A stretch of DNA of 38,103 bases from Cellulomonas algicola (GTDB taxonomy: Bacteria > Actinomycetota > Actinomycetes > Actinomycetales > Cellulomonadaceae), in assembly GCF_003851725.1 (NCBI RefSeq), contig NZ_BHYL01000225.1, positions 1 to 38,103 of the forward strand, written 5' to 3'. Below are positions 3,162-27,578 of this stretch, in pieces. The translations under genes were made by a program, and so were the position numbers. Below the pieces are notes generated by a model, which saw nothing but the letters and a program-made list of their open reading frames with translations, did no database searches and was not told the origin of the DNA. The stretch's first letter is position 1, and the number at the start of each line of letters is the position of its first letter.

Positions 3162-4490
3162 CTACTGGCCGATGGCCAGCTTCACCTCGTCGGTGAACTG
3201 CTTCGCGGCCTGCTCGGGCGTGAGGCGCCCGAAGAGGACCTCCTCGTTGATGCGCTTGGTGATGCCGGCGACCTCGCCCGCACCCACCGGCGGCACGACG
3301 GGACCGTCGACGATGTCGCCCTCGAGGCTCGCGAGGAACTCGGCGGCCTGCTTGTCGGTGTCGTTGAACTTGTCCTGCACCGCGGCGCGGACGTCGGTGT
3401 TGGCGGGCAGGCCGCGGTCGGACAGCAGGATCTCGCCGGCGGCCGGGTCGTTCAGCAGGAAGTCGACGAGGAGCTTGGCCTCCTCCGGGTGCTGCGACTT
3501 CGCGGAGACGGAGTAGAACATGGCCGGCTTGAAGTACATGCCGGTGCGCTCCTCCTCCGACTCGCCGGGGACGCGCAGCAGCTGGAGCGGGCGGCCCGAC
3601 GCGGTCGTGATGGCGGTGAGCTGGTTGGTCCAGAACCACGCCATGGCGCCCTTGTTGGTGCCGACGAGGGACTGCTCGGGGCCGCCCGCGTCGGTCTCGA
3701 CCGTGAGGGCCGCGTCGGGCGTGCCGCCGCCGGCCTGCAGGTCGAGCGAGTACTGCCACCAGTCGGCCAGCGTCGACTCCTTGTAGCCGACCTCGCCGTC
3801 CTCGTTGTAGAGGGACTCGCCGCGCTGCCGCGCGAAGATCGAGAACCCGGGCTCGTTGAACCCGTAGTCCTGCGCGCCGTAGATCGCCTTGCCCGTCTTC
3901 GCCGAGATCTCGTTGGCGATGTCGACGTAGTCCTCCCACGTCCACGTGGTGTCGTCGGGCATCTCGACGCCCGCCGCGGCGAACGCCTCGGGGTCCGCGA
4001 CGATCGCGTACGCGTTGACGCCCGTCGCGACGCCGTAGAGCGCGTCGTCGATCGTGCCGGACTGCAGCACGTTCGGGTCGATCTTCGAGGTGTCGAGGTC
4101 GAGCTCGTTGAGGTCGGCCAGCACGCCCTGCGACGCGTAGTCCGCCAGGTAGCGCTCCTCCTGCGTGATGACGTCGGGGGCGTCACCGCCGGCGACGCCG
4201 GTGCTCAGCTTGTCGAAGTACGAGTTCCAGTCCGTGTAGTCCGGCACCACCGTGATGTGCGGGTACTTCTCGGTGAACTTGTCGAGCACCTGCTGGGTGA
4301 GCTCGTGGCGGGTGTCGGAGCCCCACCACGAGAAGCGGATCTCGACGGGCTCGGGCGGCCCGGACGAGGTGGCCTCGGCGGCGGGCTCGTCGGACCCGGC
4401 GCAGGCGGTCAGGGCGAGGGCCCCGACGGCGAGCAGTGCAGCGGACCGCAGGACGGCGGTCCGGCCGCGGAGGGCGGGACGGTGGCGCAT
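3162..4490 (-). CDS. Sugar ABC transporter substrate-binding lipoprotein (CUT1, SBP family 1)
   Basis: A 442-residue extracellular lipoprotein that binds an oligosaccharide or sugar for import. The signal peptide ends in a lipobox LTAC (Cys30), followed by a Ser/Ala/Glu linker and the family-1 opening VEIRFSWWGSDTRHELTQQV, then KFTEKYPHITV. The later segments TWTWEDYVDIANEIS and FKPAMFYSVSAKSQHPEEAK are typical for this family. ATG 4490 is chosen because AAGGAGAACC lies directly upstream. It is the last gene of the operon after two permeases, a reversed order compared with transporter 2 in this window. No ATPase gene accompanies it, so a shared MsmK/MsmX-like ATPase is expected. Regulation should come from the LacI-type operators at 6468-6528. 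The ligand is unknown; a plant cell-wall oligosaccharide fits the neighbourhood. Confidence 0.92.
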   Translation of the reverse strand: MRHRPALRGRTAVLRSAALLAVGALALTACAGSDEPAAEATSSGPPEPVEIRFSWWGSDTRHELTQQVLDKFTEKYPHITVVPDYTDWNSYFDKLSTGVAGGDAPDVITQEERYLADYASQGVLADLNELDLDTSKIDPNVLQSGTIDDALYGVATGVNAYAIVADPEAFAAAGVEMPDDTTWTWEDYVDIANEISAKTGKAIYGAQDYGFNEPGFSIFARQRGESLYNEDGEVGYKESTLADWWQYSLDLQAGGGTPDAALTVETDAGGPEQSLVGTNKGAMAWFWTNQLTAITTASGRPLQLLRVPGESEEERTGMYFKPAMFYSVSAKSQHPEEAKLLVDFLLNDPAAGEILLSDRGLPANTDVRAAVQDKFNDTDKQAAEFLASLEGDIVDGPVVPPVGAGEVAGITKRINEEVLFGRLTPEQAAKQFTDEVKLAIGQ

Positions 4491-4553: not shown

Positions 4554-5492
4554 CTACTTGATGCCTGTCGTCGCGATGCCCTTGACCAGGTACTTCTGGC
4601 CGAAGAGGAACGCGAGGAAGACGGGCAGGAGGGAGACGATCGACATCGCGAACATCGGCCCCCACGAGCTCTGGCCCGTGGCGTCGATGAACGTGCGCAG
4701 GGCGACCGGAGCCGTGTACATGTCCGGTCTCGTGAGGAAGATGAGCTGGCTGAAGAAGTCGTTCCACGTCCAGATGAACGTGAAGATCGCGGTCGTCGCG
4801 AGGGCCGGCATCGACAGCGGCAGCATGATCTGCAGGTAGATGCGGCCGTGCCCGGCGCCGTCGAGGCGCGCGGCCTCGTCCAGCTCCTTCGGGATGCCGC
4901 GGAAGAACTGGACCATGAGGAAGATGAAGAACGCGTCCGTGGCCAGCAGCTTCGGCACGATCAGCGGCAGGAACGTGTTGATCCACTCGAGCCGGGAGAA
5001 CAGCACGTACTGCGGGACGATGATCACGTGGATCGGCAGCATGATCGACATGAGCATGATCGCGAACCACAGCTGGCGGCCCTTGAACTGCAGCCGTGCG
5101 AACGCGTAGGCCGCCATCGAGCAGCTCACGAGGTTCCCGAGGAGCGAGCCGAGGACGATGAGCGCCGAGTTCAGCAGGTAGCGGCTGAACGGGTACTGCA
5201 GCGCGTTCCACCCCGCCGTGTAGTTGGTGGTGTCGATCTCCGACGGGATGAGCGACACGTCCCGGAAGATCAGCTCGCTCGGCTTGAACGAGCTCACCAG
5301 CAGCCAGATCAGCGGGTACAGCATGATCAGCGCGAGCGCGATCAGGCCCACGTGCTTGAGGAACGCGCGCCAACGGGACGGCCAGGGGGAGCGGGTGCGC
5401 AGGACAGGCGTCTTGCCGCCGTCGTGGCGGGCGTCGGCGCGCGAGGCGTGGACGCCGGCAGCGGGGTCGGGGCGCATCTGGAGGTCAGTCAT
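4554..5492 (-). CDS. Sugar ABC transporter permease (MalG/CUT1 type)
   Basis: A 312-residue inner-membrane permease. About six membrane segments are visible, starting with FLKHVGLIALALIMLYPLIW, and the cytoplasmic EAA loop that docks the ATPase reads ELDEAARLDGAGHGRIYLQI followed by MLPLSMPAL. The C-terminus GQKYLVKGIATTGIK is typical of MalG-type subunits. ATG 5492 overlaps the end of the upstream permease by 8 bases (ATGACTGA), which suggests translational coupling; a GTG one codon earlier is possible. It pairs with the permease at 5485-6432 and the binding protein at 3162-4490. Confidence 0.92.
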   Translation of the reverse strand: MTDLQMRPDPAAGVHASRADARHDGGKTPVLRTRSPWPSRWRAFLKHVGLIALALIMLYPLIWLLVSSFKPSELIFRDVSLIPSEIDTTNYTAGWNALQYPFSRYLLNSALIVLGSLLGNLVSCSMAAYAFARLQFKGRQLWFAIMLMSIMLPIHVIIVPQYVLFSRLEWINTFLPLIVPKLLATDAFFIFLMVQFFRGIPKELDEAARLDGAGHGRIYLQIMLPLSMPALATTAIFTFIWTWNDFFSQLIFLTRPDMYTAPVALRTFIDATGQSSWGPMFAMSIVSLLPVFLAFLFGQKYLVKGIATTGIK

Positions 5493-6432
5493 CACCGTAG
5501 AAGACCCAATACTTGGAGGCGAGGAAGTTGAGTGCCGTCATGGCGGCGACGATGAGCACCAGCAGCCACGCCATCGCGGAGGCGTAGCCCATCTGCAGGG
5601 CCGTGAAGCCCTTCTGGTAGAGGTAGAGCGTGTAGAACATCGTCGAGTCGGCCGGTCCGCCGGTGCCGCCGGAGACGACGAACGCCTGCGTGAAGCTCTG
5701 GAACGCGCCGATGACCTGGAGCACGAGGTTGAAGAAGATGATCGGCGTGAGCAGCGGGATGGTGATGCTGCGGAACTGCCGCACCTTGCCGGCGCCGTCG
5801 ATCGACGCGGCCTCGTAGTACATCTCCGGGATCTGCCGCAGGCCCGCGAGGAAGATGATCATCGGGGCGCCGAACGTCCAGACGTGCAGGGCGACGAGCG
5901 TCCACAGCGCGGTGTCGGGGTCGGAGACCCACCCCTTGCCCTGGACGCCGAACAGCGCGAGGAACGCGTTGACGAGGCCCTCCGCGCCGAACACCTGCCG
6001 CCAGAGGATCGCGACGGCGACCGAGCCGCCGAGCAGCGACGGCAGGTAGAACACGGAGCGGTAGAACGACAGGCCGCGCAGCCCGCGGTCGAGCAGCATC
6101 GCGAGCCCGAGGGCGACGATCAGCTGCAGCGGGACCGCCGTCAGCACGTACGTGAACGTGACCTTGAGGGAGTTGAGGAGCCGGGGGTCCTCGAACATCC
6201 GCGTGTAGTTCTCCAGCCCGATCCACGTCGGCGGCTTGAGCAGCCGGTACTCCGTGAAGGACAGGTAGAGCGACATCACCATCGGCCCGATGGTGATGAG
6301 GAACAACCCGAGGAACCACGGCGCCAGGAAGATCGCGGCGACCTTGCCGTCGCCCCGTCCCGTGACGCCACGGGCGGCGCCCGCGGCTCCTCGCTTCCCG
6401 GTCGTTCGCCGGAACTCACTTACTACCGACAT
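5485..6432 (-). CDS. Sugar ABC transporter permease (MalF/CUT1 type)
   Basis: A 315-residue permease and the first gene of ABC operon 1. It has the MalF-type entry FLAPWFLGLFLITIGPMVMS followed by SLYLSFTEYRLLKPP, several further membrane segments, and the EAA motif EMYYEAASIDGAGKVRQFRS followed by ITIPLLTP. I chose ATG 6432, which has GAGGTGG upstream; the longer frame to 6696 runs through the divergent promoters and is not plausible. The gene is divergent from the LacI-DUF6807 fusion with 187 bases between, and its promoter region holds two near-identical palindromic operators, so repression by that neighbour is the natural model. Confidence 0.92.
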   Translation of the reverse strand: MSVVSEFRRTTGKRGAAGAARGVTGRGDGKVAAIFLAPWFLGLFLITIGPMVMSLYLSFTEYRLLKPPTWIGLENYTRMFEDPRLLNSLKVTFTYVLTAVPLQLIVALGLAMLLDRGLRGLSFYRSVFYLPSLLGGSVAVAILWRQVFGAEGLVNAFLALFGVQGKGWVSDPDTALWTLVALHVWTFGAPMIIFLAGLRQIPEMYYEAASIDGAGKVRQFRSITIPLLTPIIFFNLVLQVIGAFQSFTQAFVVSGGTGGPADSTMFYTLYLYQKGFTALQMGYASAMAWLLVLIVAAMTALNFLASKYWVFYGDD

Positions 6433-6467: not shown

Positions 6468-6482
6468 GGGAAACCGGTTCCC
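6468..6482. promoter_or_regulatory. LacI-type operator O1
   Basis: GGGAAACCGGTTCCC, with a perfect AACCGGTT core (6472-6479). The core centre lies 46 bases from that of O2. On the minus strand it starts about 8 bases after the -10 box of ABC operon 1, so a bound repressor would block the transcription start. Confidence 0.75.
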
Positions 6483-6490
6483 GATTGGGT

Positions 6491-6519
6491 ACCGTAGCAC
6501 CGGACGAACGCCTTGGGAA
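6491..6519 (-). promoter_or_regulatory. Promoter of ABC operon 1
   Basis: Minus strand: -35 TTCCCA (6514-6519), 17-base spacer, -10 TACGGT (6491-6496). The -35 hexamer lies inside operator O2, and operator O1 falls just past the expected start site. Confidence 0.5.
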
Positions 6520-6541
6520 CCGGTTTCCTGTGGTGTATGTT
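6513..6541 (+). promoter_or_regulatory. Promoter of the LacI-DUF6807 gene
   Basis: Plus strand: -35 TTGGGA (6513-6518), 17-base spacer, -10 TATGTT (6536-6541). The -35 box overlaps operator O2, so the regulator probably controls its own gene. Confidence 0.5.
6515..6528. promoter_or_regulatory. LacI-type operator O2, shared by both divergent promoters
   Basis: GGGAACCGGTTTCC, the inverse of O1 (rc GGAAACCGGTTCCC). It covers the -35 boxes of both divergent promoters. Confidence 0.75.
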
Positions 6542-6619: not shown

Positions 6620-8587
6620 GTGACGCAGAACGGGTGGGCGCGATCCGCGCCGACCATCGCGGAGGTCGCGCGCATCGCGGGGGTCTCGCGCGCCACGGTC
6701 TCGCGCGTGATGAACGGCCGGACGACCGTCGACGCCGAGCTGGCGTCCCGTGTGCGCGAGGTCGCCGACCAGCTCCACTACCGGCCGAGCAACGTCGCGC
6801 GCAGCCTGTCGCTGGGCCGTACCGAGACCGTCGCCGTCGTCGTGCCCGACCTCGCCAACCCGATGTTCCAGCAGGTGCTCCGCGGGGTCGCCTCCGCGGC
6901 GTCCGAGAGCGGCTACCGCGTGCTGGTGGCCGACACCGCCGAGGACAGCGTCGACGAGGAGAAGGTCGCGCTCGACGCACGGCTGCGCTGCGACGCCGTC
7001 GTCCTCGTCTCCCCGCGCATGCCCGAGCCGACGCTGCGCGCGCTGCTCCCGGAGATCGCGCCCGTCGTCGTCGTCAACCGCGCGCCCGACGGCACCACCC
7101 CGACGCTCGGCATCGACTACGCCGACGGCATCGAGCAGATCGTCGACCACCTCGCACGGCTCGGGCACCGGCACCTGCTCTACCTGGCCGGCCCGACCAG
7201 CAGCGCGTCGCACTCCGCCCGGCTCGAGGCGCTGCGCGTCGCCGCCGCCCGCCGCGAGGACCTGCGCCTGTCCGAGATGCCCGCCGGCTCGTCCGTCGAC
7301 TCCGGGTACGCCGCCGCGCAGGACGTGCTCGCGTCGCGCGCCACCGCCGTCGTCGCCTACAACGACCTCGTCGCGTTCGGCCTGCTCGCGCGGCTCAACG
7401 AGCTCGGCGTCGCCGTCCCCGGAGACATCTCGATCACGGGCTTCGACGACATCGAGCTCGCGCGGTACGCGACCCCGTCGCTCACGACCGCGACCGTCCC
7501 CCAGGTCGAGCTCGGCCGCCTCGCGTGGGAGCACCTGCGCCGGTCCGCCGCGGGCGACGACGTCGACCCCACCCCGCCGCTGATCCGCCCGCTGCTCGCC
7601 GTGCGCGCCAGCACCGGCCCCGTGCCGCCCGCGGTCCGGCTGCGCCGCCGCACCCAGCCCGTCACCGACCGTCCGGGAGAGCCGCACGTGCAGTCCGCCC
7701 CGCGCTGGAGCACCGACGGACGTGCGCACGTGCTGTCCGCCACCGTCCGCACCGGCGCCCGCCCCGGCGCCGCGACGCCGCTCGCGCGCTACGAGCCCGG
7801 TGACACGATCCCGCCCGTGCACTCGCCGCGGCCGTTCCTGCACCCCGTGCACACCGCCGCCGGGACCGCCCTCACGCAGACCAGCCCCGTCGACCACCGG
7901 CACCACTACGGCGTCTCCGTCGCGGTGCCCGTCGTCAACGGCACGTCCTACTGGGGCGGCCGCACCTTCCTGCGCGACGAGGGCCCGACCCTCCTGCCGA
8001 ACCACGGCCGCCAGGTGTCGACCGGCGTCCGGCTCGACGACGACGGCTCCACGCTGGTCGACGACGTGCTGTGGCGCGACGAGCGCGACCGCCCGCTGCT
8101 GCGCGAGGACCGCCGGCTCAGCGCCCGCGCTCTGCCCGACGAGCGCGGCTGGGCGCTGCGCTGGACCACCGAGCTGCGCGCCGAGCACGGCGACCTGCGG
8201 ATCGAGAGCCCCGCGACCAACGGCCGCCCCGGCGCCGGGTACGGCGGGCTGTTCTGGCGGCTGCCGTCCGCCGACCTCACGACCGTCCTCGGGGAAGGGC
8301 TCGTCGGTGAGGAGGCCGTGCACGGCAGCCGGTCGCCGTGGCTCGCGTTCGTCCAGCGGCGCGAGGCGCGCACCACCACGCTGCTGCTGGTCCAGGGCGC
8401 CGACGAGGCGCGACCGTGGTTCGTGCGCGTCGCCGAGTACGTCGGCGCCGGGCCTGCGCTCGCGTGGGACGCACCCGTCGCGGTGCCCGCGGGCGACGTG
8501 CTGCGCGCCGGGCTCGCCGCCGTCGTCGTCGACCGCGCCCTCACCCAGGACGAGGCCGCCGCGCTCGCCGCCGAGGTGTGGGCGTGA
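6620..8587 (+). CDS. LacI-family regulator fused to a DUF6807 (PmoA-like) domain
   Basis: A 655-residue fusion. Residues 11-33 form the LacI helix-turn-helix (PTIAEVARIAGVSRATVSRV), followed by the hinge and a sugar-binding, periplasmic-binding-protein-like domain to about 335. After a short linker, residues about 357-655 match DUF6807, with DHRHHYGVSVAVP, NGTSYWGG and GAGYGGLFWR. These motifs recur in the stand-alone DUF6807 protein at 33034-34143. No stop or frameshift separates the parts. GTG 6620 has GGAGG 6 bases upstream. An internal in-frame GTG at 7688 with GGGAG before it could also give the C-terminal domain alone. The gene is divergent from ABC operon 1, with matched operators between, and overlaps the next oxidoreductase by GTGA. 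A typical LacI protein is about 340 residues, so the extra domain is a true addition. The DUF6807 activity is not established. Confidence 0.85.
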   Translation: MTQNGWARSAPTIAEVARIAGVSRATVSRVMNGRTTVDAELASRVREVADQLHYRPSNVARSLSLGRTETVAVVVPDLANPMFQQVLRGVASAASESGYRVLVADTAEDSVDEEKVALDARLRCDAVVLVSPRMPEPTLRALLPEIAPVVVVNRAPDGTTPTLGIDYADGIEQIVDHLARLGHRHLLYLAGPTSSASHSARLEALRVAAARREDLRLSEMPAGSSVDSGYAAAQDVLASRATAVVAYNDLVAFGLLARLNELGVAVPGDISITGFDDIELARYATPSLTTATVPQVELGRLAWEHLRRSAAGDDVDPTPPLIRPLLAVRASTGPVPPAVRLRRRTQPVTDRPGEPHVQSAPRWSTDGRAHVLSATVRTGARPGAATPLARYEPGDTIPPVHSPRPFLHPVHTAAGTALTQTSPVDHRHHYGVSVAVPVVNGTSYWGGRTFLRDEGPTLLPNHGRQVSTGVRLDDDGSTLVDDVLWRDERDRPLLREDRRLSARALPDERGWALRWTTELRAEHGDLRIESPATNGRPGAGYGGLFWRLPSADLTTVLGEGLVGEEAVHGSRSPWLAFVQRREARTTTLLLVQGADEARPWFVRVAEYVGAGPALAWDAPVAVPAGDVLRAGLAAVVVDRALTQDEAAALAAEVWA

Positions 8588-9735
8588 GCGCGCCCGCCGC
8601 GCTCGACCTCGCGCGCGTGGCCGTCGTCGGGGTGCACGGGCACGGCGCGTCGCACGTCCGGCGCGTCGCCGCGCTCGCCACCGACCGGCGGGCCGTGCTG
8701 TCCGGAGTCGTCGACCCGCGACCCGTCGACGGCGTCGCCGACGTGCCGCCCGGCACCCCGTGGTTCCCGTCGCTCGACGCGCTGCTCGAGGTCCAGCGGC
8801 CCGACGTCGTCGTGCTGTCCACGCCCATCCCCACGCACCTGCCGCTCGCGTCCGCCGCGCTGCGCGCCGGGTGCGACGTGCTGCTCGAGAAGCCGACGAC
8901 CGCGTCGCTCGCCGAGCACGCGGCCCTGCTGGACGTCGTCGCCGAGACCGGCCGCCGCTGCCAGGTCGGGTTCCAGACGTTCGGGTCGGGCGCCGTCGAC
9001 GAGGTCGTGCGGATCGTCGCGTCCGGCGAGCTCGGCGACGTCGTGTCCGTCGGGGCCGTCGGCACCTGGGTCCGCACCGTCGCCTACTACCAGCGCGCCG
9101 CGTGGGCCGGACGTCGCACGCTCGACGGCGTCGAGGTCGTCGACGGGGTCGTCACCAACCCGCTCGCGCACGCGGTCGCGACCGCACTGCTCGTCGCCGG
9201 GGCGCGGACCGTCGAGGACGTCGCCGACGTCGAGGTCGACCTGTTCCACGCGCACGACATCGAGGCCGACGACACGTCCGCGGTCGTCGTCACGACCCGG
9301 TCGGGCCTGCGCGTGGCCGCCGGGCTCTCGCTCTGCGCGGCCGAGCGCACCCCCTCCCGCGTCGTCGTCACGGGGTCGCAGGGGTCGCTGACCCTCTACT
9401 ACGAGCAGGACGCGATCGAGGTCCGCTCGCCGCGTGGCACGCGCCGCATCACCACCGGGCGTGTCGACCTCCTCACGCAGCTGCTCGACGCCCGCCGGTC
9501 CGACGACGTGCCGCTCCGCTGCTCCGTCGCCGACACCGGCGCGTTCATGCGCGTCCTCGAGGCCGTGCGGAGCGCGCCCGACCCGACGGCGATCGCCGCC
9601 GACCACGTCACGTGGCGGGGCAGCGGGCTCGACGCCTGGCCGGTCGTCACCGACGTCGCCGACTGGTGTGAGCGCGTCGCCGCCGAGGGCCGGACGTTCA
9701 CCGCCCTCGGCGCCCCCTGGACCCGGGACGTCTGA
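8584..9735 (+). CDS. Gfo/Idh/MocA-family oxidoreductase
   Basis: A 383-residue NAD(P)-dependent sugar oxidoreductase-like protein. It has an N-terminal Rossmann strand RVAVVGVHGHGASH and the signature LLEKPTTAS (Glu-Lys-Pro at 102-104), in which the Lys is the usual catalytic residue. The C-terminal half is the alpha/beta substrate domain. The start GTG overlaps the stop of the LacI-DUF6807 gene (GTGA at 8584-8587), so the two are surely co-translated. Families of this fold oxidise or reduce sugars, inositols or 3-keto-glycosides. The substrate is unknown. The same pairing with DUF6807 occurs again at 31568-34143. Confidence 0.88.
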   Translation: MSAPAALDLARVAVVGVHGHGASHVRRVAALATDRRAVLSGVVDPRPVDGVADVPPGTPWFPSLDALLEVQRPDVVVLSTPIPTHLPLASAALRAGCDVLLEKPTTASLAEHAALLDVVAETGRRCQVGFQTFGSGAVDEVVRIVASGELGDVVSVGAVGTWVRTVAYYQRAAWAGRRTLDGVEVVDGVVTNPLAHAVATALLVAGARTVEDVADVEVDLFHAHDIEADDTSAVVVTTRSGLRVAAGLSLCAAERTPSRVVVTGSQGSLTLYYEQDAIEVRSPRGTRRITTGRVDLLTQLLDARRSDDVPLRCSVADTGAFMRVLEAVRSAPDPTAIAADHVTWRGSGLDAWPVVTDVADWCERVAAEGRTFTALGAPWTRDV

Positions 9736-13301: not shown

Positions 13302-16300
13302 ATGCGCCCCACCCGTCCCCGGACACCCCTGCCCGAGCCCGCACCCGAACCCACGCCCGGCGCTGCGCCCGCCTCGTCCGCCCACGACCTGCGGCGTGCC
13401 CACGCCCGCCGTCGCGCGGCTGCCGCCGTCGGGTTCACCACCGCCCTCGCGACCGGCACGCTCGCAGCCGTCGCGCTGCCCGCGCACGCGGCCGATCCCG
13501 CCACCTGGAAGTTCGACCTCGGCACCGCGACCAGTCCGGTCGCCGACGGCTACCGCCAGGTCACGGAGGCGACCCGCTACGACGCGTCGACAGGCTTCGG
13601 CATCGTCCCCGCCGACGGCGTCACTCCCATCTCCCGTGACCGTGGCACGACCGACGCCGCCGACCGCGACTTCGTCCTCGCGACGGCCTGGTCGTTCGTC
13701 GTCGACGTGCCGAACGGCACCTACGACGTGACGGTCCGCTCGGGCGACCTGCTCGCCACGTCGAGCACGACCACGACCAACCTGACGCTCGAGGGCGCGA
13801 CGGCCGGGACGCTCAAGACCAAGCAGGTCGCGGCCGAGGGCACGTGGCGCACGACGGTCGCCGACGGCCAGCTCACGCTCGGCGTGACCGGTGCGGGCGC
13901 GGGCGGCTACGTCAACGCGGTCGTGGTCACCGCCGTCGCCGTCGAGCCCGGGCCGGACCCCGACCCCGAGCCCGAGCCGGACCCGACGATCGCCGCGCCC
14001 ACCGCGCTGCGGCTCGCGCACGTCGCCCCGGGATCGGCCACGCTGCGCTGGAACGAGGTCGCGGGCGCGACCGGCTACGTGCTGACGCGCGCCGACGCGC
14101 TCGCCGGCCCGTACACCGAGGTCGCGCGGACGACCCGCGACGTGTTCGCGACGGACGCGTCCGTCGACACGACCACGACGCACTGGTACCGGGTGCAGAC
14201 GCTGACCGCGACGGGCGCGTCGGTCCCGTCCGCGGCCGCCGTGAGCAGCCTCGCGGGCGACGGCGTCCCCGACCCGACGCTCCCCGCCGACGGGGTGCTC
14301 GCGTTCGACCTCGGCAGCGGGGCGCTCGTCCCGGGCAGCACGCGCCTCGACGCCACGAGCGCGTACGGCCCGACGGCCCGCGCCGGGTTCGTCGACCCGT
14401 CGCAGGTCACCGCGACCGACCGCGGCACGGCCGACGCGCTGCGCTCCGACTTCGTCACGGTCGGCGACACCGAGCTCGTCGTGGACCTGCCGGCCGGCGA
14501 CTACACGGTCGACCTGGTCGCGGGCGACACCACGGAGGCGTCGGAGATCGCGATCACCGCCGAGCAGATGGCGAAGGTCGCGACGACCGCGAAGCCCGCC
14601 GGGCAGTTCCTCGAGATGTCGTTCGACATCGCGGTCGTCGACGGGCAGCTCAACCTCGACTTCGCGGGGACCGCCCCGAAGCTCAACGCGCTCACCATCC
14701 GGCAGCAGTCGCCGCGCACCGCGGGTCCGAAGCCGACGGTGTGGGTGACCGGCGACTCGACGGTGCAGTCGTACACGGCGGACTACGCGCCACAGGCCGG
14801 CTGGGGCCAGATGATCGACCGCTACCTGTCGGACGGCGTGGTCGTCGACAACCGCGCGATCGGCGGCCGCTCGTCGAAGAACTTCATCAGCCAGGGCCGG
14901 CTCGACGAGGTGCTGCGGCTGATCAAGCCGGGCGACTACCTGTTCGTGCAGTTCGGCCACAACGACAACTCGTACGGCGTCGACGACCGGTACGCGGCGC
15001 CCGCCGACTACCGCGAGTACCTGCGCACCTACGTCGACGGTGCGCGGCAGCGCGGCGCGACGCCCGTGCTCGTGACGCCGGTGTCGCGGCGCTCGTTCGA
15101 CGCGACGACGGGCCGGTTCAACGTCTCATTCCCCGAGTACGTCGCTGCCGCCACGGCGCTGGCCGCCGAGACGGGCACGCCCCTCGTCGACCTGTCCGCG
15201 TCCAGCCGCGCCTACCTCGACGAGATCGGGCCGGAGGCCGCCAAGGCGGTGTTCCTGCACGTCCCCGCGGGCGTGTACCCGGGGCGGCCCGCGGGCACGG
15301 TCGACGACACGCACTTCCAGGAGTACGGCGCGATCCAGATGGCGCGGCTCGTCGCGACGGACGTCGCCGCGCTCGACGTGCCGCTGGCCGGTGAGGTCGA
15401 GGGCTTCGAGCCGCCGGCCGCCGTGCCGGACGCGCCCGCGGGCGTCGTCGCGGGCAACGTCTCCAACGCGGGCGTGCAGCTCACGTGGACGCCCGTCGAG
15501 GGTGCGGACGTCTACCGCGTCTACCGCAAGGACGCGGCGGCCGGTGACGACGCGTACGCGCTGGTCGCGACGTCGACGCTCGCGCAGGCGGCCGTCGGCG
15601 GGCTCGTCGAGGGTGCGTCGTACGACCTGCGCGTCACGGCGGTGAACGGTCGCGGCGAGTCCGCGCCGAGCGCCACGGTCCGCGTCACGACGAAGGCCGC
15701 GCTGTACAAGTTCGACGTGCAGCTCGCCGGCTCGCCCGTCATGCCGGGCTACGTCGAGGTCAACCAGAACAGCCGCTACACGCCCGAGACCGGGTGGGGC
15801 TGGCTCGACCCGACGGGCATGGGTGGTCGCGACCGCGGCACGAACTTCCCGACGCCGCCGAACGACCTCCAGCGGGACTTCCTGCTGCCCGGGCCGCAGC
15901 ACGTGCTCGCGGTCGACGTCCCCGACGGCTCGTACGCGGTCAAGACCTACAACGGCGACTGGATCGGCACGTCGCGCTCGAACGTGCAGATCGAGGGCAA
16001 GGACTGGGGCGCGTCGAACGCGGGCGCCGGGGCCGTCTCCGAGAAGGTCAGCCAGCCTGTGCTCGTCACCGACGGTCAGCTCTCGATCGTCATGACGGGC
16101 TCGTCGTCGCGGCTCAACGGCGTCGAGATCACGCCGCTGCTGCTCGCCCCGCAGGACCTCGTGCTCGACGGGGTGTCGATCGACGGCGCGGCTGTCTCGG
16201 TCGCGCTGTCGTGGACGGGCACCGACGACTCCGCCGGCTACCGGGTGTACCGGCAGGCGTCCGGGGCCGCGGCTCCGGTCGCGATCGGCGAGACGATCGA

Positions 16301-19130
16301 CCCCGCGTTCGTCGACACGGCCGCCGACGTCGGCCTCGCGTACCGGTACCACGTGGTCGCGCTCGACCCGTCGGGGGCCGAGTCCGTGCCGACCGACGTG
16401 CTCGACGTGACGACCGTCGACCCGTCCGTGCCCGTCGCGGGCGTGCCGTTCCCGGTGACGCTCGGCGCGGTCAACAAGAACGACGTGACCGTGCGCTGGT
16501 CGCCCGTCGACGGCGCGCTGTTCTACCAGGTGTACCGGTCGGAGTCGGTGAGCGGGCCGTACGAGCTCGTCGGGCGGGCGTCGACCGCGTCGTACACCGA
16601 CACGACGGTCCTGACGACGATCGCGTACTCGTACCGCGTCGCCTCGGTGAACGCGGGCGGCGTGTCTGCGCAGTCGCTCCCCGTGACGTCGCCCGCCGTC
16701 ACGACGCTGTCGCGGCAGTCGGAGCGGCTCGACCGGTCGCCCGTCGCGGTCGCCGTCGACGGCGGCGTCTACGTCGGCTGGCGCATGCTCGGCACGGACC
16801 CGGAGTCGATCGGGTTCCACGTGTACCGCGACGGCCGGCGGATCACCGGCGCACCGATCGGCGGCTCGACCAACACGCTCGACGCGGGCGGCACCGCGGC
16901 GTCGACCTACCGCGTGAGCAGCGTCGTCGACGGCATCGAGCGCTGGGCCACCCCCGAGTTCCGGCCCTGGTCCGAGCAGCACCTCGACGTTCCGCTCGAC
17001 AAGCCCGCCGACGCGTACGCCAAGGACGGCCAGCCGTACACGTACAACGCCAACGACGCGTCCGTGGGCGACCTCGACGGCGACGGACAGTACGAGATCG
17101 TCGTCAAGTGGGACCCGTCCAACTCGAAGGACAACTCCCAGGCCGGCTACACGGGCAACGTCTACCTCGACGCGTACGAGCTCGACGGCACCCGCCTCTG
17201 GCGGGTCGACCTGGGCCGCAACATCCGCGCCGGTGCGCACTACACGCAGTTCCAGGTGTTCGACCTGGACGGCGACGGGCGCGCCGAGGTCACGGCGAAG
17301 ACGGCCGACGGAACCGTCGACGGGGTGGGCGGCGTCATCGGCGACGCCCGCGCCGACTACCGCAACTCCAGCGGCTACGTCCTCACCGGACCGGAGTTCC
17401 TCACGGTCTTCGACGGGCGCTCGGGTGCCGCGGTCGACACCGTCGACTACACGCCGCCGCGCGGCGACGTCTCCGCGTGGGGCGACGCCTACGGCAACCG
17501 CGTCGACCGGTTCCTCGCCGGCGTCGCGTACCTCGACGGCGAGCACCCGTCGCTCGTCGTCAGCCGCGGCTACTACACGCGCACCGTCATCGCGACGTAC
17601 GACTTCGACGGCGCGCAGCTGGTGCAGCGGTGGGTGTTCGACTCCGACGTCGAGGGCGACCGGTACAAGGGCCAGGGCAACCACAACCTGTCCGTGGCCG
17701 ACGTCGACGGGGACCAGAAGGACGAGATCGTCTTCGGCTCCATGACGGTCGACGACGACGGCGACCCGCTGTACGTCACCGGTCTCGGGCACGGCGACGC
17801 GCTGCACGTGTCCGACCTCGACCCGTCGCGCGACGGGCTGGAGGTGTTCGCGGTGCACGAGGAGGCGCCGTCGTCGAAGGGCATCGGCGCGACGTTCCGC
17901 GACGCCCGCACGGGTGAGGTGCTGTGGTCGATGCCGGCGGCGAAGGACACGGGCCGGGGCGCCTCGGCGGACATCGATCCGTCGCACGACGGCGCGGAGT
18001 CGTGGGCCGTCGTCGACACCGGCGAGTGGAACTCGCGCGCCGGCCAGCTCCGGGCCGCGGACGGGACGCTGATCGGGACGTCGATCCCGGCGGCGAACTT
18101 CCTCACCTGGTGGGACGGCGACCTCCTGCGGGAGATCACCGACCACGACTGGGACGCCACGACGACCACGGGCGTGCCGACGATCGCGAAGTGGTCGCCG
18201 TCCGCCGGGGCCGCCACGGAGATCTACCGCGCGACGGGGACGCTGTCGAACAACGGCACCAAGGGCACCCCCGCCCTGCAGGCCGACCTGTTCGGCGACT
18301 GGCGCGAGGAGCTCGTCACCCGGCTCGCGGACTCGTCCGCGCTGCGCATCGCGACGACCGTCGACGTCACCCAGCACCGGCTGCGCACCCTGCAGTCCGA
18401 CCCGGTGTACCGGCTCGGCGTCGCCTGGCAGAACACCGGCTACAACCAGCCGCCGCACACGTCGTACTTCCTCGGCGCGGGGATGACGACGCCGCCGGCA
18501 CCGCGGCTCGCGCTCACGGGCGCGGACCCGGGGCCGGGGGAGCGGGTCCCCGGACCGGCCACCGGCGCGCCCGCTCGCGGGGCGCTGTCGTCGGACAACT
18601 GGGACGGCGACGGGACGTACACCGTGGCGCTCAACGTCTGGTGGGGGCAGAACGCCCACACCGTGACGCTCCTCGAGAACGGGGTCGAGATCGCCCGACG
18701 CGACCTCGTCGACGCCACGCCGTCCGCGCAGTCCGCCGCCTTCCAGGTGGCCGGCCGGGGCAACGGCACGTACGTCTACACCGCGGTGCTCACCAACCAG
18801 CACGGGTCGACGACGACCGCCCCGCTGACCGTCGTCGTGAGCAAGGCGAACCCGGCGACCCCGGTGCTGAGCCACGACAACTGGGACGGCGACGGGACGT
18901 ACACCGTCACGACCAACCTGTGGTGGGGCACCAACGCGACCGAGTACCGGCTCTACGAGGACGGCGTCCTCGTCGACGCGCAGGCGCTCGTCGCGAACGG
19001 CGTCAACGCCCAGAAGGCCACGACGACCGTCACCGGCCGGGCCGTCGGGACGCACGTCTACCGCGCGGAGCTGTCCAACGCCGCCGGCACGACCAGCAGC
19101 ACGGACCTGAAGGTGGTGGTCCGCCGCTGA
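13302..19130 (+). CDS. Secreted rhamnogalacturonan acetylesterase (CE12) - rhamnogalacturonan lyase (PL11) fusion
   Basis: A 1942-residue multidomain secreted enzyme for rhamnogalacturonan I, the branched pectin backbone. In order: a long basic signal region ending ALPAHAA (about 63); an FDLG-type beta-sandwich module (68-210); a PEP-rich linker; an FN3-like domain (230-320); a second FDLG module (330-470); an SGNH/CE12 esterase (480-690) with GDS (Ser486), GGRS, GHND (about 552-555) and DDTH (Asp668, His671); an FN3 domain; a third FDLG module (from 801); two FN3 domains; a PL11 lyase (1139-1740) with its QSERLDRSPVAV start and repeated DLDGDGQYE / DLDGDGRAE calcium-type loops; and two Ig-like repeats that each begin DNWDGDGTY (1763 and 1857), as in chitinases. 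The esterase would remove acetyl groups that hinder the lyase. ATG 13302 has GAAGG 8 bases upstream. LacI-type operators lie at its promoter and a strong terminator follows. Confidence 0.93.
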   Translation: MRPTRPRTPLPEPAPEPTPGAAPASSAHDLRRAHARRRAAAAVGFTTALATGTLAAVALPAHAADPATWKFDLGTATSPVADGYRQVTEATRYDASTGFGIVPADGVTPISRDRGTTDAADRDFVLATAWSFVVDVPNGTYDVTVRSGDLLATSSTTTTNLTLEGATAGTLKTKQVAAEGTWRTTVADGQLTLGVTGAGAGGYVNAVVVTAVAVEPGPDPDPEPEPDPTIAAPTALRLAHVAPGSATLRWNEVAGATGYVLTRADALAGPYTEVARTTRDVFATDASVDTTTTHWYRVQTLTATGASVPSAAAVSSLAGDGVPDPTLPADGVLAFDLGSGALVPGSTRLDATSAYGPTARAGFVDPSQVTATDRGTADALRSDFVTVGDTELVVDLPAGDYTVDLVAGDTTEASEIAITAEQMAKVATTAKPAGQFLEMSFDIAVVDGQLNLDFAGTAPKLNALTIRQQSPRTAGPKPTVWVTGDSTVQSYTADYAPQAGWGQMIDRYLSDGVVVDNRAIGGRSSKNFISQGRLDEVLRLIKPGDYLFVQFGHNDNSYGVDDRYAAPADYREYLRTYVDGARQRGATPVLVTPVSRRSFDATTGRFNVSFPEYVAAATALAAETGTPLVDLSASSRAYLDEIGPEAAKAVFLHVPAGVYPGRPAGTVDDTHFQEYGAIQMARLVATDVAALDVPLAGEVEGFEPPAAVPDAPAGVVAGNVSNAGVQLTWTPVEGADVYRVYRKDAAAGDDAYALVATSTLAQAAVGGLVEGASYDLRVTAVNGRGESAPSATVRVTTKAALYKFDVQLAGSPVMPGYVEVNQNSRYTPETGWGWLDPTGMGGRDRGTNFPTPPNDLQRDFLLPGPQHVLAVDVPDGSYAVKTYNGDWIGTSRSNVQIEGKDWGASNAGAGAVSEKVSQPVLVTDGQLSIVMTGSSSRLNGVEITPLLLAPQDLVLDGVSIDGAAVSVALSWTGTDDSAGYRVYRQASGAAAPVAIGETIDPAFVDTAADVGLAYRYHVVALDPSGAESVPTDVLDVTTVDPSVPVAGVPFPVTLGAVNKNDVTVRWSPVDGALFYQVYRSESVSGPYELVGRASTASYTDTTVLTTIAYSYRVASVNAGGVSAQSLPVTSPAVTTLSRQSERLDRSPVAVAVDGGVYVGWRMLGTDPESIGFHVYRDGRRITGAPIGGSTNTLDAGGTAASTYRVSSVVDGIERWATPEFRPWSEQHLDVPLDKPADAYAKDGQPYTYNANDASVGDLDGDGQYEIVVKWDPSNSKDNSQAGYTGNVYLDAYELDGTRLWRVDLGRNIRAGAHYTQFQVFDLDGDGRAEVTAKTADGTVDGVGGVIGDARADYRNSSGYVLTGPEFLTVFDGRSGAAVDTVDYTPPRGDVSAWGDAYGNRVDRFLAGVAYLDGEHPSLVVSRGYYTRTVIATYDFDGAQLVQRWVFDSDVEGDRYKGQGNHNLSVADVDGDQKDEIVFGSMTVDDDGDPLYVTGLGHGDALHVSDLDPSRDGLEVFAVHEEAPSSKGIGATFRDARTGEVLWSMPAAKDTGRGASADIDPSHDGAESWAVVDTGEWNSRAGQLRAADGTLIGTSIPAANFLTWWDGDLLREITDHDWDATTTTGVPTIAKWSPSAGAATEIYRATGTLSNNGTKGTPALQADLFGDWREELVTRLADSSALRIATTVDVTQHRLRTLQSDPVYRLGVAWQNTGYNQPPHTSYFLGAGMTTPPAPRLALTGADPGPGERVPGPATGAPARGALSSDNWDGDGTYTVALNVWWGQNAHTVTLLENGVEIARRDLVDATPSAQSAAFQVAGRGNGTYVYTAVLTNQHGSTTTAPLTVVVSKANPATPVLSHDNWDGDGTYTVTTNLWWGTNATEYRLYEDGVLVDAQALVANGVNAQKATTTVTGRAVGTHVYRAELSNAAGTTSSTDLKVVVRR

Positions 19131-24296: not shown

Positions 24297-25610
24297 ATGA
24301 AGCGATCCCTCTGGAAGATCACCGCCGTCGCGGCGGTCGCCGCACTTTCCCTCACCGCCTGCGCCTCCGGCTCGGGTGACGACGACGCCCCCAGCACCGA
24401 CCCGACCGCCCCCGTCACGATCAACTTCACGTGGTGGGGCAACGACGACCGGGCCGCGCGCTACCAGGAGGCGCTCGACCTGTTCAAGGAGCAGTACCCG
24501 TACATCACGGTGCAGACCAGCTTCGCCGCGTTCCCCGACTACTGGACGCAGCGCTCCACCGAGGCCGCGGGCCGCAAGCTGCCCGACGTCATGCAGTTCG
24601 ACCTGTCCTACCTGCGCGAGTTCAACCAGAACGGCCAGCTCCTCGACCTCGCGAAGTACGTCGACGACGGCTCGATCGACCTGTCCGGATACGACGAGAC
24701 CCTCACGGAGTCCGGCGTGCTCGACGGCAAGACGATCGGCATCCCCACGTCCACGAACACGTTCGCGATGTTCCAGAACCCCGCCGTCATCAGCGCGACC
24801 GGTGCGGAGTTCCCGGACGACGCGGACTACACGTGGGAGGACTACAACGACTTCATCGCGCAGGCCTCGTCGGCCGGCGTGAAGACCGCGGACGGCTACC
24901 AGCTCTACGGCGCCGTCGACTACACGGGCACGTTCTGGTTCTTCATCCAGTGGCTGCTGCAGAAGGGCGTCACGCCGTTCGAGGACGACGGCACGTTCGG
25001 CTTCGACGAGGACGACGTCGTCGAGTTCCTCGACCTGACGGCCGACCTGCGCGCCGACAAGGCCGTCTACCCGATCGACCGCGGCACGTCGCTGCTCCCC
25101 AAGGGCGGCTTCACGGTCAACGAGTCCGCGACCGAGATGAGCTGGGACAACTTCCTCGCCGCCTACGTCGCCGACTCCGGCACGCAGGACATCGCGCTCG
25201 CGCAGATCCCGTCGGTCGAGCCCGGTGAGAAGCACCTCTTCTTCAAGCCGTCGATGCTGCTGTCGGCCGGCGCGAACACCGAGCACCCCGAGGCCGCGGC
25301 CACGCTCATCAACTTCCTCCTCACCGACCCCGAGGTCGGCCGGATCTTCGGCACCTCGAAGGGTGTCCCCGCCGACGAGGAGCAGCGCGCCGCGGTCGAG
25401 ACCGAGGAAGGCAGCGTCGACGCCCGCGTCATCGCCTACGAGGAGGCGGTGACCGAGCAGGTCACCGAGTCGACCCCGATCCCGGTCAAGGGCTTCGGCA
25501 CCATCGAGGCCAAGTGGAAGACCCTCGGCGAGGAGCTCGCCTACGGCACCATCACGCCGGAGGACTTCGCGTCGCAGTGGTTCAGCGAGGCGGAGATCGC
25601 GACCTCCTGA
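24297..25610 (+). CDS. Sugar ABC transporter substrate-binding lipoprotein (CUT1, SBP family 1)
   Basis: A 437-residue extracellular lipoprotein and first gene of ABC operon 2. Lipobox LTAC (Cys22), then a short acidic linker and the family opening VTINFTWWGNDDRAARYQEA followed by LFKEQYPYITV. Later features include DADYTWEDYNDFIAQAS and FFKPSMLLSAGANTEHPEAA. It is a distant paralogue of the binding protein at 3162-4490, with matching FKPxMxxSxxxxxxHPEEA blocks. ATG 24297 has AGGAGG 11 bases upstream. A hairpin at 25618 separates it from the permease genes, which would give more binding protein than permease. The ligand is unknown; the neighbours suggest a pectin- or arabinan-derived oligosaccharide. 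Confidence 0.93.
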   Translation: MKRSLWKITAVAAVAALSLTACASGSGDDDAPSTDPTAPVTINFTWWGNDDRAARYQEALDLFKEQYPYITVQTSFAAFPDYWTQRSTEAAGRKLPDVMQFDLSYLREFNQNGQLLDLAKYVDDGSIDLSGYDETLTESGVLDGKTIGIPTSTNTFAMFQNPAVISATGAEFPDDADYTWEDYNDFIAQASSAGVKTADGYQLYGAVDYTGTFWFFIQWLLQKGVTPFEDDGTFGFDEDDVVEFLDLTADLRADKAVYPIDRGTSLLPKGGFTVNESATEMSWDNFLAAYVADSGTQDIALAQIPSVEPGEKHLFFKPSMLLSAGANTEHPEAAATLINFLLTDPEVGRIFGTSKGVPADEEQRAAVETEEGSVDARVIAYEEAVTEQVTESTPIPVKGFGTIEAKWKTLGEELAYGTITPEDFASQWFSEAEIATS

Positions 25611-25617
25611 GCCGACC

Positions 25618-25654
25618 GGCACCCCGCCCGCACCATCCTCGCGGGCGGGGTGCC
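25618..25654 (+). terminator. Intra-operon hairpin between binding protein and permeases
   Basis: A perfect 14-bp stem GGCACCCCGCCCGC (25618-25631) with 25641-25654 and a 9-base loop, 8 bases after the stop codon. In this position it acts as a partial terminator or as a 3' mRNA stabiliser. Confidence 0.75.
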
Positions 25655-25713
25655 CACCGGCGGCCCGCACGAGGCCGCCAGCGGAACCCGCTCACCGACG
25701 AACGGAACGACCC

Positions 25714-26670
25714 GTGACCCTCACCGCCGAGGTGACCACGCCTCCCGCCACCCCCGCGCCGCCGCCGGGGACCGCGCGCAAGCGCCGCCAGGCCGCCGAG
25801 ACCCGTGCCGGGTACGCGTTCCTCGCGCCGTGGCTGCTGGGCTTCTTCCTCCTGACCGCCGGACCGATGCTCGCGTCGCTCTACCTGGCGTTCACGAACT
25901 ACAACCTCTTCGCGCCGCCCGAGTTCACGGGCCTCGAGAACTTCCGGCTCCTCTTCAAGGACCCGAGCTACCTCAAGGCGTGGCAGGTCACCGGGACGTA
26001 CGTGCTCTTCGGGACGCCGATCAAGCTCATCGCCGCGCTCGCCGTCGCGATGCTGCTGAACAACCGGCGCCGCGGCAAGGGCTTCTACCGGTCGTCGTTC
26101 TACATGCCGTCCCTCGTCGGGGCGTCCGTGTCGATCGCCATCGTCTGGAAGGCGATGTTCATCGACAACGGCATCGTCGACCAGATCGGCCAGTTCTTCG
26201 GCGCCCCCGCCGGCGGCTGGGTCGGCGACCCGAACCGCACGATGCCGATGCTGATCCTGCTGACCGTCTGGCAGTTCGGCGCGCCGATGGTCATCTTCCT
26301 CGCGGGCCTCAAGCAGATCCCGAACGAGCTCTACGAGGCCGCGTCGGTCGACGGCGCCGGGCCGGTGCGCAAGTTCCGCAACATCACGCTGCCGATGCTG
26401 TCGCCGGTCATCTTCTTCAACCTGCTGCTCGAGACGATCCACGCGTTCCAGATCTTCGCGTCGGCGTTCATCATCTCGAACGGCACCGGCGGCCCGGCGC
26501 GGTCGACGCTCTTCTACACGCTCTACCTCTACCAGCGCGGTTTCCAGGACTTCCGGATGGGCTACGCCGCGGCGATGGCCTGGGTCCTCGTCGTCGTCAT
26601 CGGCCTCATCACCGTGCTCTTCTTCCGCAGCTCGAAGTTCTGGGTGCACTACTCCGGGGAGGGCAAGTGA
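25714..26670 (+). CDS. Sugar ABC transporter permease (MalF/CUT1 type)
   Basis: A 318-residue inner-membrane permease. After a Pro/Ala-rich cytoplasmic tail it has AGYAFLAPWLLGFFLLTAG and SLYLAFTNYNLFAPPEFTG, then further membrane segments and the EAA motif ELYEAASVDGAGPVRKFRN followed by ITLPMLSP. It aligns along its length with the permease at 5485-6432 (shared FGAPMVIFLAGLKQIP block), so the two transporters are paralogous. The GTG start at 25714 is supported by the position after the hairpin and by the extent of homology. It overlaps the next permease by GTGA. Confidence 0.92.
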   Translation: MTLTAEVTTPPATPAPPPGTARKRRQAAETRAGYAFLAPWLLGFFLLTAGPMLASLYLAFTNYNLFAPPEFTGLENFRLLFKDPSYLKAWQVTGTYVLFGTPIKLIAALAVAMLLNNRRRGKGFYRSSFYMPSLVGASVSIAIVWKAMFIDNGIVDQIGQFFGAPAGGWVGDPNRTMPMLILLTVWQFGAPMVIFLAGLKQIPNELYEAASVDGAGPVRKFRNITLPMLSPVIFFNLLLETIHAFQIFASAFIISNGTGGPARSTLFYTLYLYQRGFQDFRMGYAAAMAWVLVVVIGLITVLFFRSSKFWVHYSGEGK

Positions 26671-27578
26671 CCACGATCGCCGCGACCCCCAGCGGTCCCG
26701 TCTCCACCGAGCACAGCGACCAGCTGCGCCGTCAGCACCGCACGCGCGAGCGCGTCAAGGGCCTCGGCTTCCACGCCCTCGTCCTCGCGATCGTCGCCGT
26801 GATCCTGTACCCGGCCGTGTGGATGCTGTCCTCGTCGTTCAAGCCGAGCAGCGACATCGTCGGCAACGTCAGCCTCATCCCCGACGCCGCGACGTTCGCC
26901 AACTTCGCGAAGGCGCTCGACGGCATCGGCGGCGTGTCGTTCTGGACGTTCTTCACCAACTCGCTGATCCTCGCGGTCGGCTCCGTCGTCGGGATCACGC
27001 TGTCCTGCTCGGTGTCCGCCTACGCGTTCGCGCGGATCGACTTCCCGGGGCGGAACACCTTCTTCGCGCTCATGATCGGCACGCTCCTGCTGCCGTTCCA
27101 CGTCGTCATCATCCCGCAGTACATCGTGTTCTCCCGGCTCAACCTGGTCGACACGTTCGTCCCGCTGCTGATCGGCAAGTTCCTCGCGGCCGAGGCGTTC
27201 TTCGTGTTCCTCATGGTGCAGTTCATGCGGAACCTGCCGCGCGAGCTCGACGAGGCCGCACGCATCGACGGCGCCGGCCACGTGCGGATCTTCACGTCGA
27301 TCATGCTGCCGCTCATGAAGCCCGCGCTCGTGACGAGCTCGATCTTCGCGTTCATCTGGTCGTGGAACGACTTCTTCGGGCCGCTGCTCTACCTCAAGGA
27401 CCCCGACCTGGCGACCATGCCGCTCGCCCTGCGGCTCTACGTCGACCAGACCACGACGTCCGACTACGGCGCCCAGATGGCCATGGCCGTGCTCGCGCTC
27501 GTGCCCGTGCTGCTGTTCTTCCTCGTGTTCCAGCGCTACCTGGTCGAGGGCGTCGCGACGCAGGGTCTCAAGGGCTGA
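26667..27578 (+). CDS. Sugar ABC transporter permease (MalG/CUT1 type)
   Basis: A 303-residue permease paired with the preceding gene; its GTG overlaps that gene's stop (26667-26670). Membrane segments start with GFHALVLAIVAVILYPAVW, the SSSFKPSSDI motif follows, and the EAA loop reads ELDEAARIDGAGHVRIFTSI followed by MLPLMKPAL. The ending RYLVEGVATQGLKG is typical. It closely resembles the permease at 4554-5492. No ATPase gene follows, so a shared MsmK/MsmX-like subunit is expected. Confidence 0.92.
   Translation: MTTIAATPSGPVSTEHSDQLRRQHRTRERVKGLGFHALVLAIVAVILYPAVWMLSSSFKPSSDIVGNVSLIPDAATFANFAKALDGIGGVSFWTFFTNSLILAVGSVVGITLSCSVSAYAFARIDFPGRNTFFALMIGTLLLPFHVVIIPQYIVFSRLNLVDTFVPLLIGKFLAAEAFFVFLMVQFMRNLPRELDEAARIDGAGHVRIFTSIMLPLMKPALVTSSIFAFIWSWNDFFGPLLYLKDPDLATMPLALRLYVDQTTTSDYGAQMAMAVLALVPVLLFFLVFQRYLVEGVATQGLKG

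Follow-up and report, generated by a model that had tools for sequence, protein, structure and literature searches.

An in-frame fusion of a LacI-type repressor and a DUF6807 domain in Cellulomonas algicola and related actinobacteria

Organization of the fusion gene

The DNA analysed here (the window) is a 38,103-nucleotide stretch of Cellulomonas algicola, contig NZ_BHYL01000225.1 of a 4.5-Mb draft assembly in 535 contigs. A single gene on its plus strand (6620–8587) encodes a LacI-type repressor fused to a domain of the DUF6807 family. The gene has a GTG start with GGAGG upstream and a TGA stop, and its translation runs over 655 residues with zero internal stops. From the N- to the C-terminus the protein contains a LacI-type helix-turn-helix (HTH; residues 12–57, positions 6653–6790; PF00356, 52.7 bits at a cut-off of 27), a LacI sugar-binding domain of the Peripla_BP_3 type (residues 175–332, 7142–7615; PF13377, profile 1–167 of 167), an interdomain linker of ∼20 residues (about residues 333–354, 7616–7681) and a complete DUF6807 domain (residues 386–650, 7775–8569; PF14100, profile 9–269 of 270, 209.8 bits at a cut-off of 27). 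In the linker the predicted local distance difference test score (pLDDT) falls below 50 at residues 344–349; the predicted DUF6807 fold begins near residue 355, ahead of the Pfam match. The only other Pfam hits were weak generic HTH models, and neither a GntR nor an aminotransferase domain was found. The GC content at third codon positions is 0.95–1.0 in every 60-codon block of the gene, the linker included, so the whole fusion frame is coding. Translation, Pfam and third-position GC thus agree with the original prediction of HTH, sugar-binding domain and DUF6807 in one stop-free frame.

The fusion gene is followed by a gene for a Gfo/Idh/MocA oxidoreductase of 383 amino acids (8584–9735, plus strand). 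Because the GTG start of the latter lies within the stop codon of the fusion (GTGA), the two genes are probably translationally coupled. A coupling of the fusion to a Gfo/Idh/MocA enzyme had been claimed before; the overlap at 8584 bears it out, and a Gfo partner recurs in relatives.

Occurrence in relatives

The same fusion was present in 32 of 40 regions around DUF6807 matches of relatives, hand-picked across genera among the matches listed. In two of the other eight (L041 and L052, on the minus strand) the LacI and DUF6807 frames differ at the linker, which is either a true split or a sequencing error, and six had Gfo/DUF6807 arrangements. Among the named loci, which are the best 80 of at least 423 relatives, 49 were fused. 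Window and loci pooled yielded 82 fused lines, corresponding to 73 distinct fusion proteins; nine locus pairs share an identical fusion protein, and the counts of neighbouring genes per line, given below, are therefore not independent. Within the order, near-full-length matches to a model of LacI end, linker and DUF6807 (from position 1–3 to at least 414) were found in at least 42 of 396 genomes, belonging to six family groups (f1, f9, f11, f13, f14 and f19); six of 44 such matches contain one stop, which in the window's own match is the terminal stop. In a phylum-wide draw of 396 genomes, 16 matched at an E-value of 1e-60 or better and two of these at full length. The fusion is thus widespread among near relatives and rare in the rest of the sample. 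Named carriers include Cellulomonas, Demequina, Promicromonospora, Isoptericola, Kribbella, Brachybacterium, Agromyces and Microbacterium, and the nearest named genome is that of Cellulomonas biazotea (92% identity across the DUF6807 domain). A search for further fusions, with unfused pairs for comparison, had been proposed together with the original prediction; it produced the 73 distinct fusions and three splits, in close as well as distant relatives.

The third split is found in L106, where a stop separates the LacI and DUF6807 parts; all three split loci retain a Gfo gene nearby. A second DUF6807 gene lies near the fusion in L053 (4815–6215; the same protein as L088 6515–7915) and near the split version in L052 (8326–9270). 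DUF6807 is also fused to Gfo/Idh/MocA in a single frame in L126 (4888–6780, 631 aa), L132, L137, L146, L147, L046, L061 and L065, and in L123 the Gfo part of such a fusion spans two frames.

Evolution of the fusion

Quick trees were calculated for both halves, using DUF6807 loci only. In the DUF6807 tree (145 rows) all 73 fused rows fall into one clade of 82 rows, with a Shimodaira-Hasegawa-like approximate likelihood ratio (SH-aLRT) support of 99; the remaining nine rows of the clade comprise the three splits along with second copies and rows without a fusion. The Gfo/Idh-DUF6807 fusions (eight rows plus L123, from other actinobacteria) all lie outside this clade. In the LacI tree (123 rows), which has long branches, including one within the sister group, 74 fused and three split rows form one clade (support 99). 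Its sister (support 93) consists of seven LacIs, six of which come from loci with a Gfo-DUF6807 fusion or with adjacent Gfo and DUF6807 genes. With a single clade in each tree and few splits, one fusion event followed by rare later splits is the simplest account. The LacI found beside a separate DUF6807 gene in Nocardiopsis and Thermobifida was considered as the source of the fused LacI but is not supported, since the sister group is another set of LacIs.

The ratio of nonsynonymous to synonymous substitution rates (dN/dS) was determined for six pairs of fusions, after exclusion of two Microbacterium pairs in which the cut between LacI and linker failed. It was 0.055–0.235 for the LacI half, 0.116–0.34 for the DUF6807 half and 0.237–0.886 for the linker, taken here as the segment that starts at the STGP motif and ends 40 residues ahead of DHxHHxG. 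These ratios indicate that both halves are under purifying selection and that the linker drifts yet stays in frame, as expected of a product made in one piece. Overall, the comparisons show a fusion that is real, old within the Actinomycetota and kept under selection.

The DUF6807 domain

Residues 349–655 were modelled with a mean pLDDT of 96.3. In the VIA structure comparison the best matches include galactose-mutarotase-like folds, among them the polysaccharide lyase family 26 (PL26) enzyme 5xqg (Z 17.1, root-mean-square deviation (rmsd) 3.0, 232 residues aligned) and GalM 4bze (Z 16.6, rmsd 3.5, 227 aligned), which places the predicted DUF6807 fold with this group; Z-scores span 14.3–17.1 among the 50 matches listed. 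The model of the full-length fusion has a pLDDT of 88.5 and a predicted template modelling score (pTM) of 0.55; the domains are confident, their relative placement is not.

Seventeen conserved positions of the domain were examined. All 17 are kept in 38 of the 47 fused rows with a Gfo partner; the other nine, all belonging to Microbacterium or Agromyces, deviate at position 408, 427 or 462. His426, His428 and His568 are kept in all 47.

PmoA of methane monooxygenase is a membrane-embedded helical subunit. The predicted DUF6807 fold is nearly all strands, with helices of at least four residues only at 216–219 and 295–306 of the model, and a reading of PF14100 as PmoA or methane oxygenase was therefore rejected. 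These names are given to PF14100 in the accessible text of PMC5342196, whose subject is a metagenome-derived operon that carries an enolase-type gene together with two new beta-galactosidases, and in that of PMC10291797, where the family is used as 'PmoA'. In the accessible part of PMC10971088, DUF6807 is cited merely as a numbering example, and the accessible parts of PMC10066097 and PMC3377646 contain nothing on it.

Operator-like sites

Between the fusion gene and a divergently oriented permease gene lies a twin pseudo-palindrome, GGRAACCGGTTYCC, with a central CG. The two putative sites, GGAAACCGGTTCCC (6469–6482) and GGGAACCGGTTTCC (6515–6528), are 46 bp apart, and both are located within the divergent promoter region, which measures ∼190 bp if the permease starts at the ATG at 6432. 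Operators of the repressor had been proposed to flank the transporter; operator-like sites do occur at the divergent transporter promoter, but both are inside it rather than on either side of the transporter genes. In the draft assembly the exact 14-bp site occurs at these two positions only; with up to two mismatches allowed, there are 37 sites versus 7 for the reversed control. Four sites within two mismatches lie on one other contig of this genome (C34, positions 12808, 27625, 31551 and 47056), which also carries a galactarate/altronate dehydratase at 28611–29339; these sites may belong to a related regulon.

The core AACCGGTT was counted in the 73 distinct regions upstream of the fusions. 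These 25,550 bases contain 75 copies, versus 61 in 902,737 other bases, which are from the same loci and may overlap between loci. Forty-six of the 73 fusions have the core upstream, and 29 upstream regions have two or more, spaced at 45–46 bp (13 regions), 34–35 bp (15) or 87 bp (1). The 13 with 45–46 bp spacing are all from the genus of the window, by kinship or record name. The difference between the two common spacings is close to one helical turn, which would leave both sites on the same face of the DNA. Taken together, the counts argue strongly, if indirectly, for a dedicated local regulator, and the LacI half probably binds the twin AACCGGTT operator.

Gene neighbourhood and putative substrate

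The divergent genes, all on the minus strand, encode the components of an ATP-binding cassette (ABC) importer: permease A (5485–6432; BPD_transp_1; ATG start at 6432 by reading), permease B (4554–5495; BPD_transp_1, by Pfam) and a solute-binding protein (3162–4430; start possibly further upstream), whose best PDB match is YesO (5z6b, E 2.7e-67). Within the available stretch, 65 of the 82 fused lines have a related permease and 52 a Gfo partner. A gene with the GD_AH domain (galactarate/altronate-dehydratase type) is found in 23 lines, in seven directly downstream of the fusion, and a glycoside hydrolase family 43 (GH43) gene in 17, in 15 directly upstream. The neighbouring GH43 has a beta-xylosidase-type C-terminal domain, and the relative of solved structure closest to it is an arabinofuranosidase. 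In the subclade of L047, L048, L054, L068, L069 and L070, which lacks Gfo, the GD_AH gene is directly downstream and conserved DUF6807 histidines are changed.

Pfam scans were made of the neighbours at chosen loci (14 fused with Gfo, 15 fused without and 15 unfused), leaving out the target, short genes and some others. Beside fusions with Gfo (85 proteins) there were eight further Gfo/Idh, three GD_AH and two pectate lyases. Beside fusions without Gfo (94 proteins) there were seven GH43, five pectate lyases, five pectinesterases, three GH28 and two GD_AH. The neighbours of unfused loci (85 proteins) included eight PF01370 epimerase-family, six enolase-superfamily, four GH43, four DHDPS-family and three pectate lyase genes. 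The enolase-superfamily neighbours that were tested are nearest to talarate/galactarate dehydratase, below the cut-off. In composition the neighbour set is similar to the oxidative hexuronate route that the accessible text of PMC6353982 describes. Among the matches listed, 92 of 95 DUF6807-positive genomes carry a GD_AH domain, versus 28 of 105 negative ones.

A pectin-derived uronate or oligosaccharide is most likely the substrate, as judged from the pectin- and uronate-related neighbours, the YesO-like importer and GD_AH. A purely xylan reading of the GH43 neighbours was dropped because pectate lyase, pectinesterase and GD_AH recur and an arabinofuranosidase is the closest GH43 of solved structure. 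Two further assignments gained no clear support: the PF01370 gene of Nocardiopsis-type clusters as a uronate dehydrogenase (best matches generic and below cut-offs), and a BT2158-type 3-keto-glycoside route for Gfo/Idh (weak matches only, far below the cut-off).

The window also encodes a rhamnogalacturonan lyase and an arabinofuranosidase. A very long frame (13302–19127) combines rhamnogalacturonan lyase family 11 (RGL11_C), GDSL esterase and fn3 domains. A second Gfo/Idh/MocA gene (31568–33037, plus strand, by domain scan) is directly followed by an unfused DUF6807 gene of another subfamily (33037–34143, plus strand); with an ABC importer at 24297–27578 upstream of this pair, the window holds two similar units. 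At 36327–38102 on the minus strand, one frame encodes a pyridine-nucleotide reductase (1–277) and an S-adenosylmethionine (SAM) methyltransferase (423–517).

Discussion

The account that we favour, at somewhat better than even confidence, is that a single polypeptide combines a LacI-family repressor with a galactose-mutarotase-like DUF6807 domain that still acts on a sugar of the pathway under its control. The LacI half, as a dimer, would occupy both sites and shut off the importer operon as well as the operon of the fusion itself and Gfo. An imported sugar of the pectin or uronate type would enter the LacI pocket and cause release from the DNA. The DUF6807 half would interconvert or open the sugar, as a mutarotase, lactonase or similar enzyme, and so supply the Gfo/Idh dehydrogenase; the next step would fall to a galactarate/altronate-type dehydratase whose gene lies elsewhere in the genome. 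If the fusion is under the control of its own operators, repressor and enzyme would increase together upon induction.

Several observations weigh against this account. With respect to the fold, some high VIA rows have unrelated names; Foldseek returned two matches at E ≤0.001 with template modelling (TM) scores near 0.4, which is weak by itself. The galactose-mutarotase-like fold is common to mutarotases, polysaccharide lyases and glycosidase or accessory domains, and thus points to carbohydrate without singling out a reaction. A sequence search for solved structures related to DUF6807 found none at E-values up to 1, and an hhalign profile comparison with 22 aldose epimerases gave no signal (probability 0.1), an absence that is not proof. 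We found no reported activity for any DUF6807 protein in the literature. In terms of regulation, 27 of the 73 upstream regions lack an exact AACCGGTT core within 350 nt. In terms of the pathway, the galactarate/altronate dehydratase of the window genome is on another contig; the comparison of GD_AH in DUF6807-positive and negative genomes takes all DUF6807 genes, fused or not, is uncorrected for kinship and assumes the same 200 genomes. Finally, 26 of the 73 fused rows have no Gfo partner within 2.5 kb. Fifteen of these keep all 17 conserved positions and 11 have a changed His426, His428 or His568; the latter form two clades and thus reflect at least two events, not eleven. The histidine changes fit a binding role of the domain in Gfo-less fusions.

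In principle, such a role could apply to the fusion in general: the DUF6807 half would then be a non-catalytic second sensor or an oligomerisation module that binds a pathway sugar and modulates the LacI half, in the manner of the aminotransferase-fold domain of MocR-type regulators. This is a possibility to be taken seriously, albeit an unlikely one. Gfo-less fusions do persist, some with altered histidines, and the loosely defined domain arrangement of the full model leaves room for regulatory contact. However, the three histidines are invariant wherever a Gfo partner is present, the nine deviating rows differing only elsewhere, and with its LacI half the protein already possesses a complete sugar-pocket domain. 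We consider it improbable that the fusion is passive, a shared transcript and chain with no regulatory consequence. The split versions that retain Gfo nearby, and the fusion of DUF6807 to Gfo/Idh in other lineages, would agree with this, but a neutral fusion need not persist, whereas the one-piece form makes up 73 of the 82 rows of the DUF6807 clade, across several families.

The number of products was also considered. An in-frame GTG at 7688–7690 (plus strand), preceded by GGGAG, had been put forward as a second start, so that one gene would yield two products, the complete fusion and DUF6807 as a separate protein. The codon and the preceding motif are indeed there, and a linker start with a Shine-Dalgarno-like word occurs in 8 of 33 fused genes; the relatives lend no support to its use as a start. 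The frequency of start codons with such a word is the same in linker and LacI part (0.00515 versus 0.00501 per codon), and the position of 7688 is not conserved among fused relatives, so this start is not a conserved device. The linker, moreover, drifts but is kept in frame in 73 distinct fusions, against three splits, which would be needless with an independent start. The idea of two proteins from one gene is therefore disfavoured, and we regard it as very unlikely. An assembly or sequencing artefact, for which one could cite the 535-contig draft and the linker frame changes in two relatives as potential sequencing errors, is refuted for practical purposes by the occurrence of the fusion in many independent assemblies, including single-contig genomes (e.g. 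L032 from G102).

The preferred combination of repressor and enzyme-like domain in one chain is a further case of a known kind, the regulator-enzyme fusion. In the trigger-enzyme regulators NadR, BirA and PutA, a single chain has both a role in transcriptional control and one in the pathway itself, and catalysis is established; their domains are unrelated to those of the fusion, for which catalysis is a proposal. In MocR/GabR it is the enzyme-fold domain that senses the effector. Like the fusion, MocR/GabR join a DNA-binding regulator to an enzyme-fold domain in one chain by way of a linker, but MocR, PdxR and GabR combine a GntR winged HTH with an aminotransferase fold, whereas the fusion has a LacI HTH, a different enzyme fold and a separate LacI sensor domain. 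The LacI repressors of hexuronate catabolism (UxaR, UxuR, KdgR and ExuR), as presented in the accessible text of PMC4052901, share with the fusion the HTH and periplasmic-binding-like sensor; they control local importer and catabolic genes, a function that the operator-like sites suggest for the fusion as well. They differ from it in having no third, C-terminal DUF6807 domain, and the terms 'fused', 'fusion' or 'additional domain' gave no match in that text. Stand-alone DUF6807 beside Gfo/Idh/MocA and the Gfo/Idh-DUF6807 fusions have the same domain and the same Gfo/Idh subfamily as the LacI fusion, in many cases an ABC importer of the same type and largely the same conserved residues, but no DNA-binding part. 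GalM resembles the predicted DUF6807 fold, with no sequence kinship detected. We found no description of a LacI-DUF6807 fusion in the literature, as judged from titles and the beginnings of abstracts; the search was full for the exact terms DUF6807 and PF14100 and partial for broader terms.

A more specific form of the preferred account, which we advance tentatively and think rather doubtful, is a repressor able to edit the signal to which it responds. Its DUF6807 half would convert the imported pectin sugar, for instance between anomers or between lactone and acid, and in this way make or remove the inducer form sensed by the LacI half. One molecule would then read and reset the inducer and pass the product on to the translationally coupled Gfo/Idh; to our knowledge, it would be the first LacI-type repressor of this kind. 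If the repressor and enzyme halves influence each other, the fusion would be a compact natural feedback device in a single chain, and its clear domain boundaries allow simple truncation tests. For DUF6807, a family without known function, the fusion and neighbour arrangements provide a tie to sugar catabolism, probably that of pectin and uronates.

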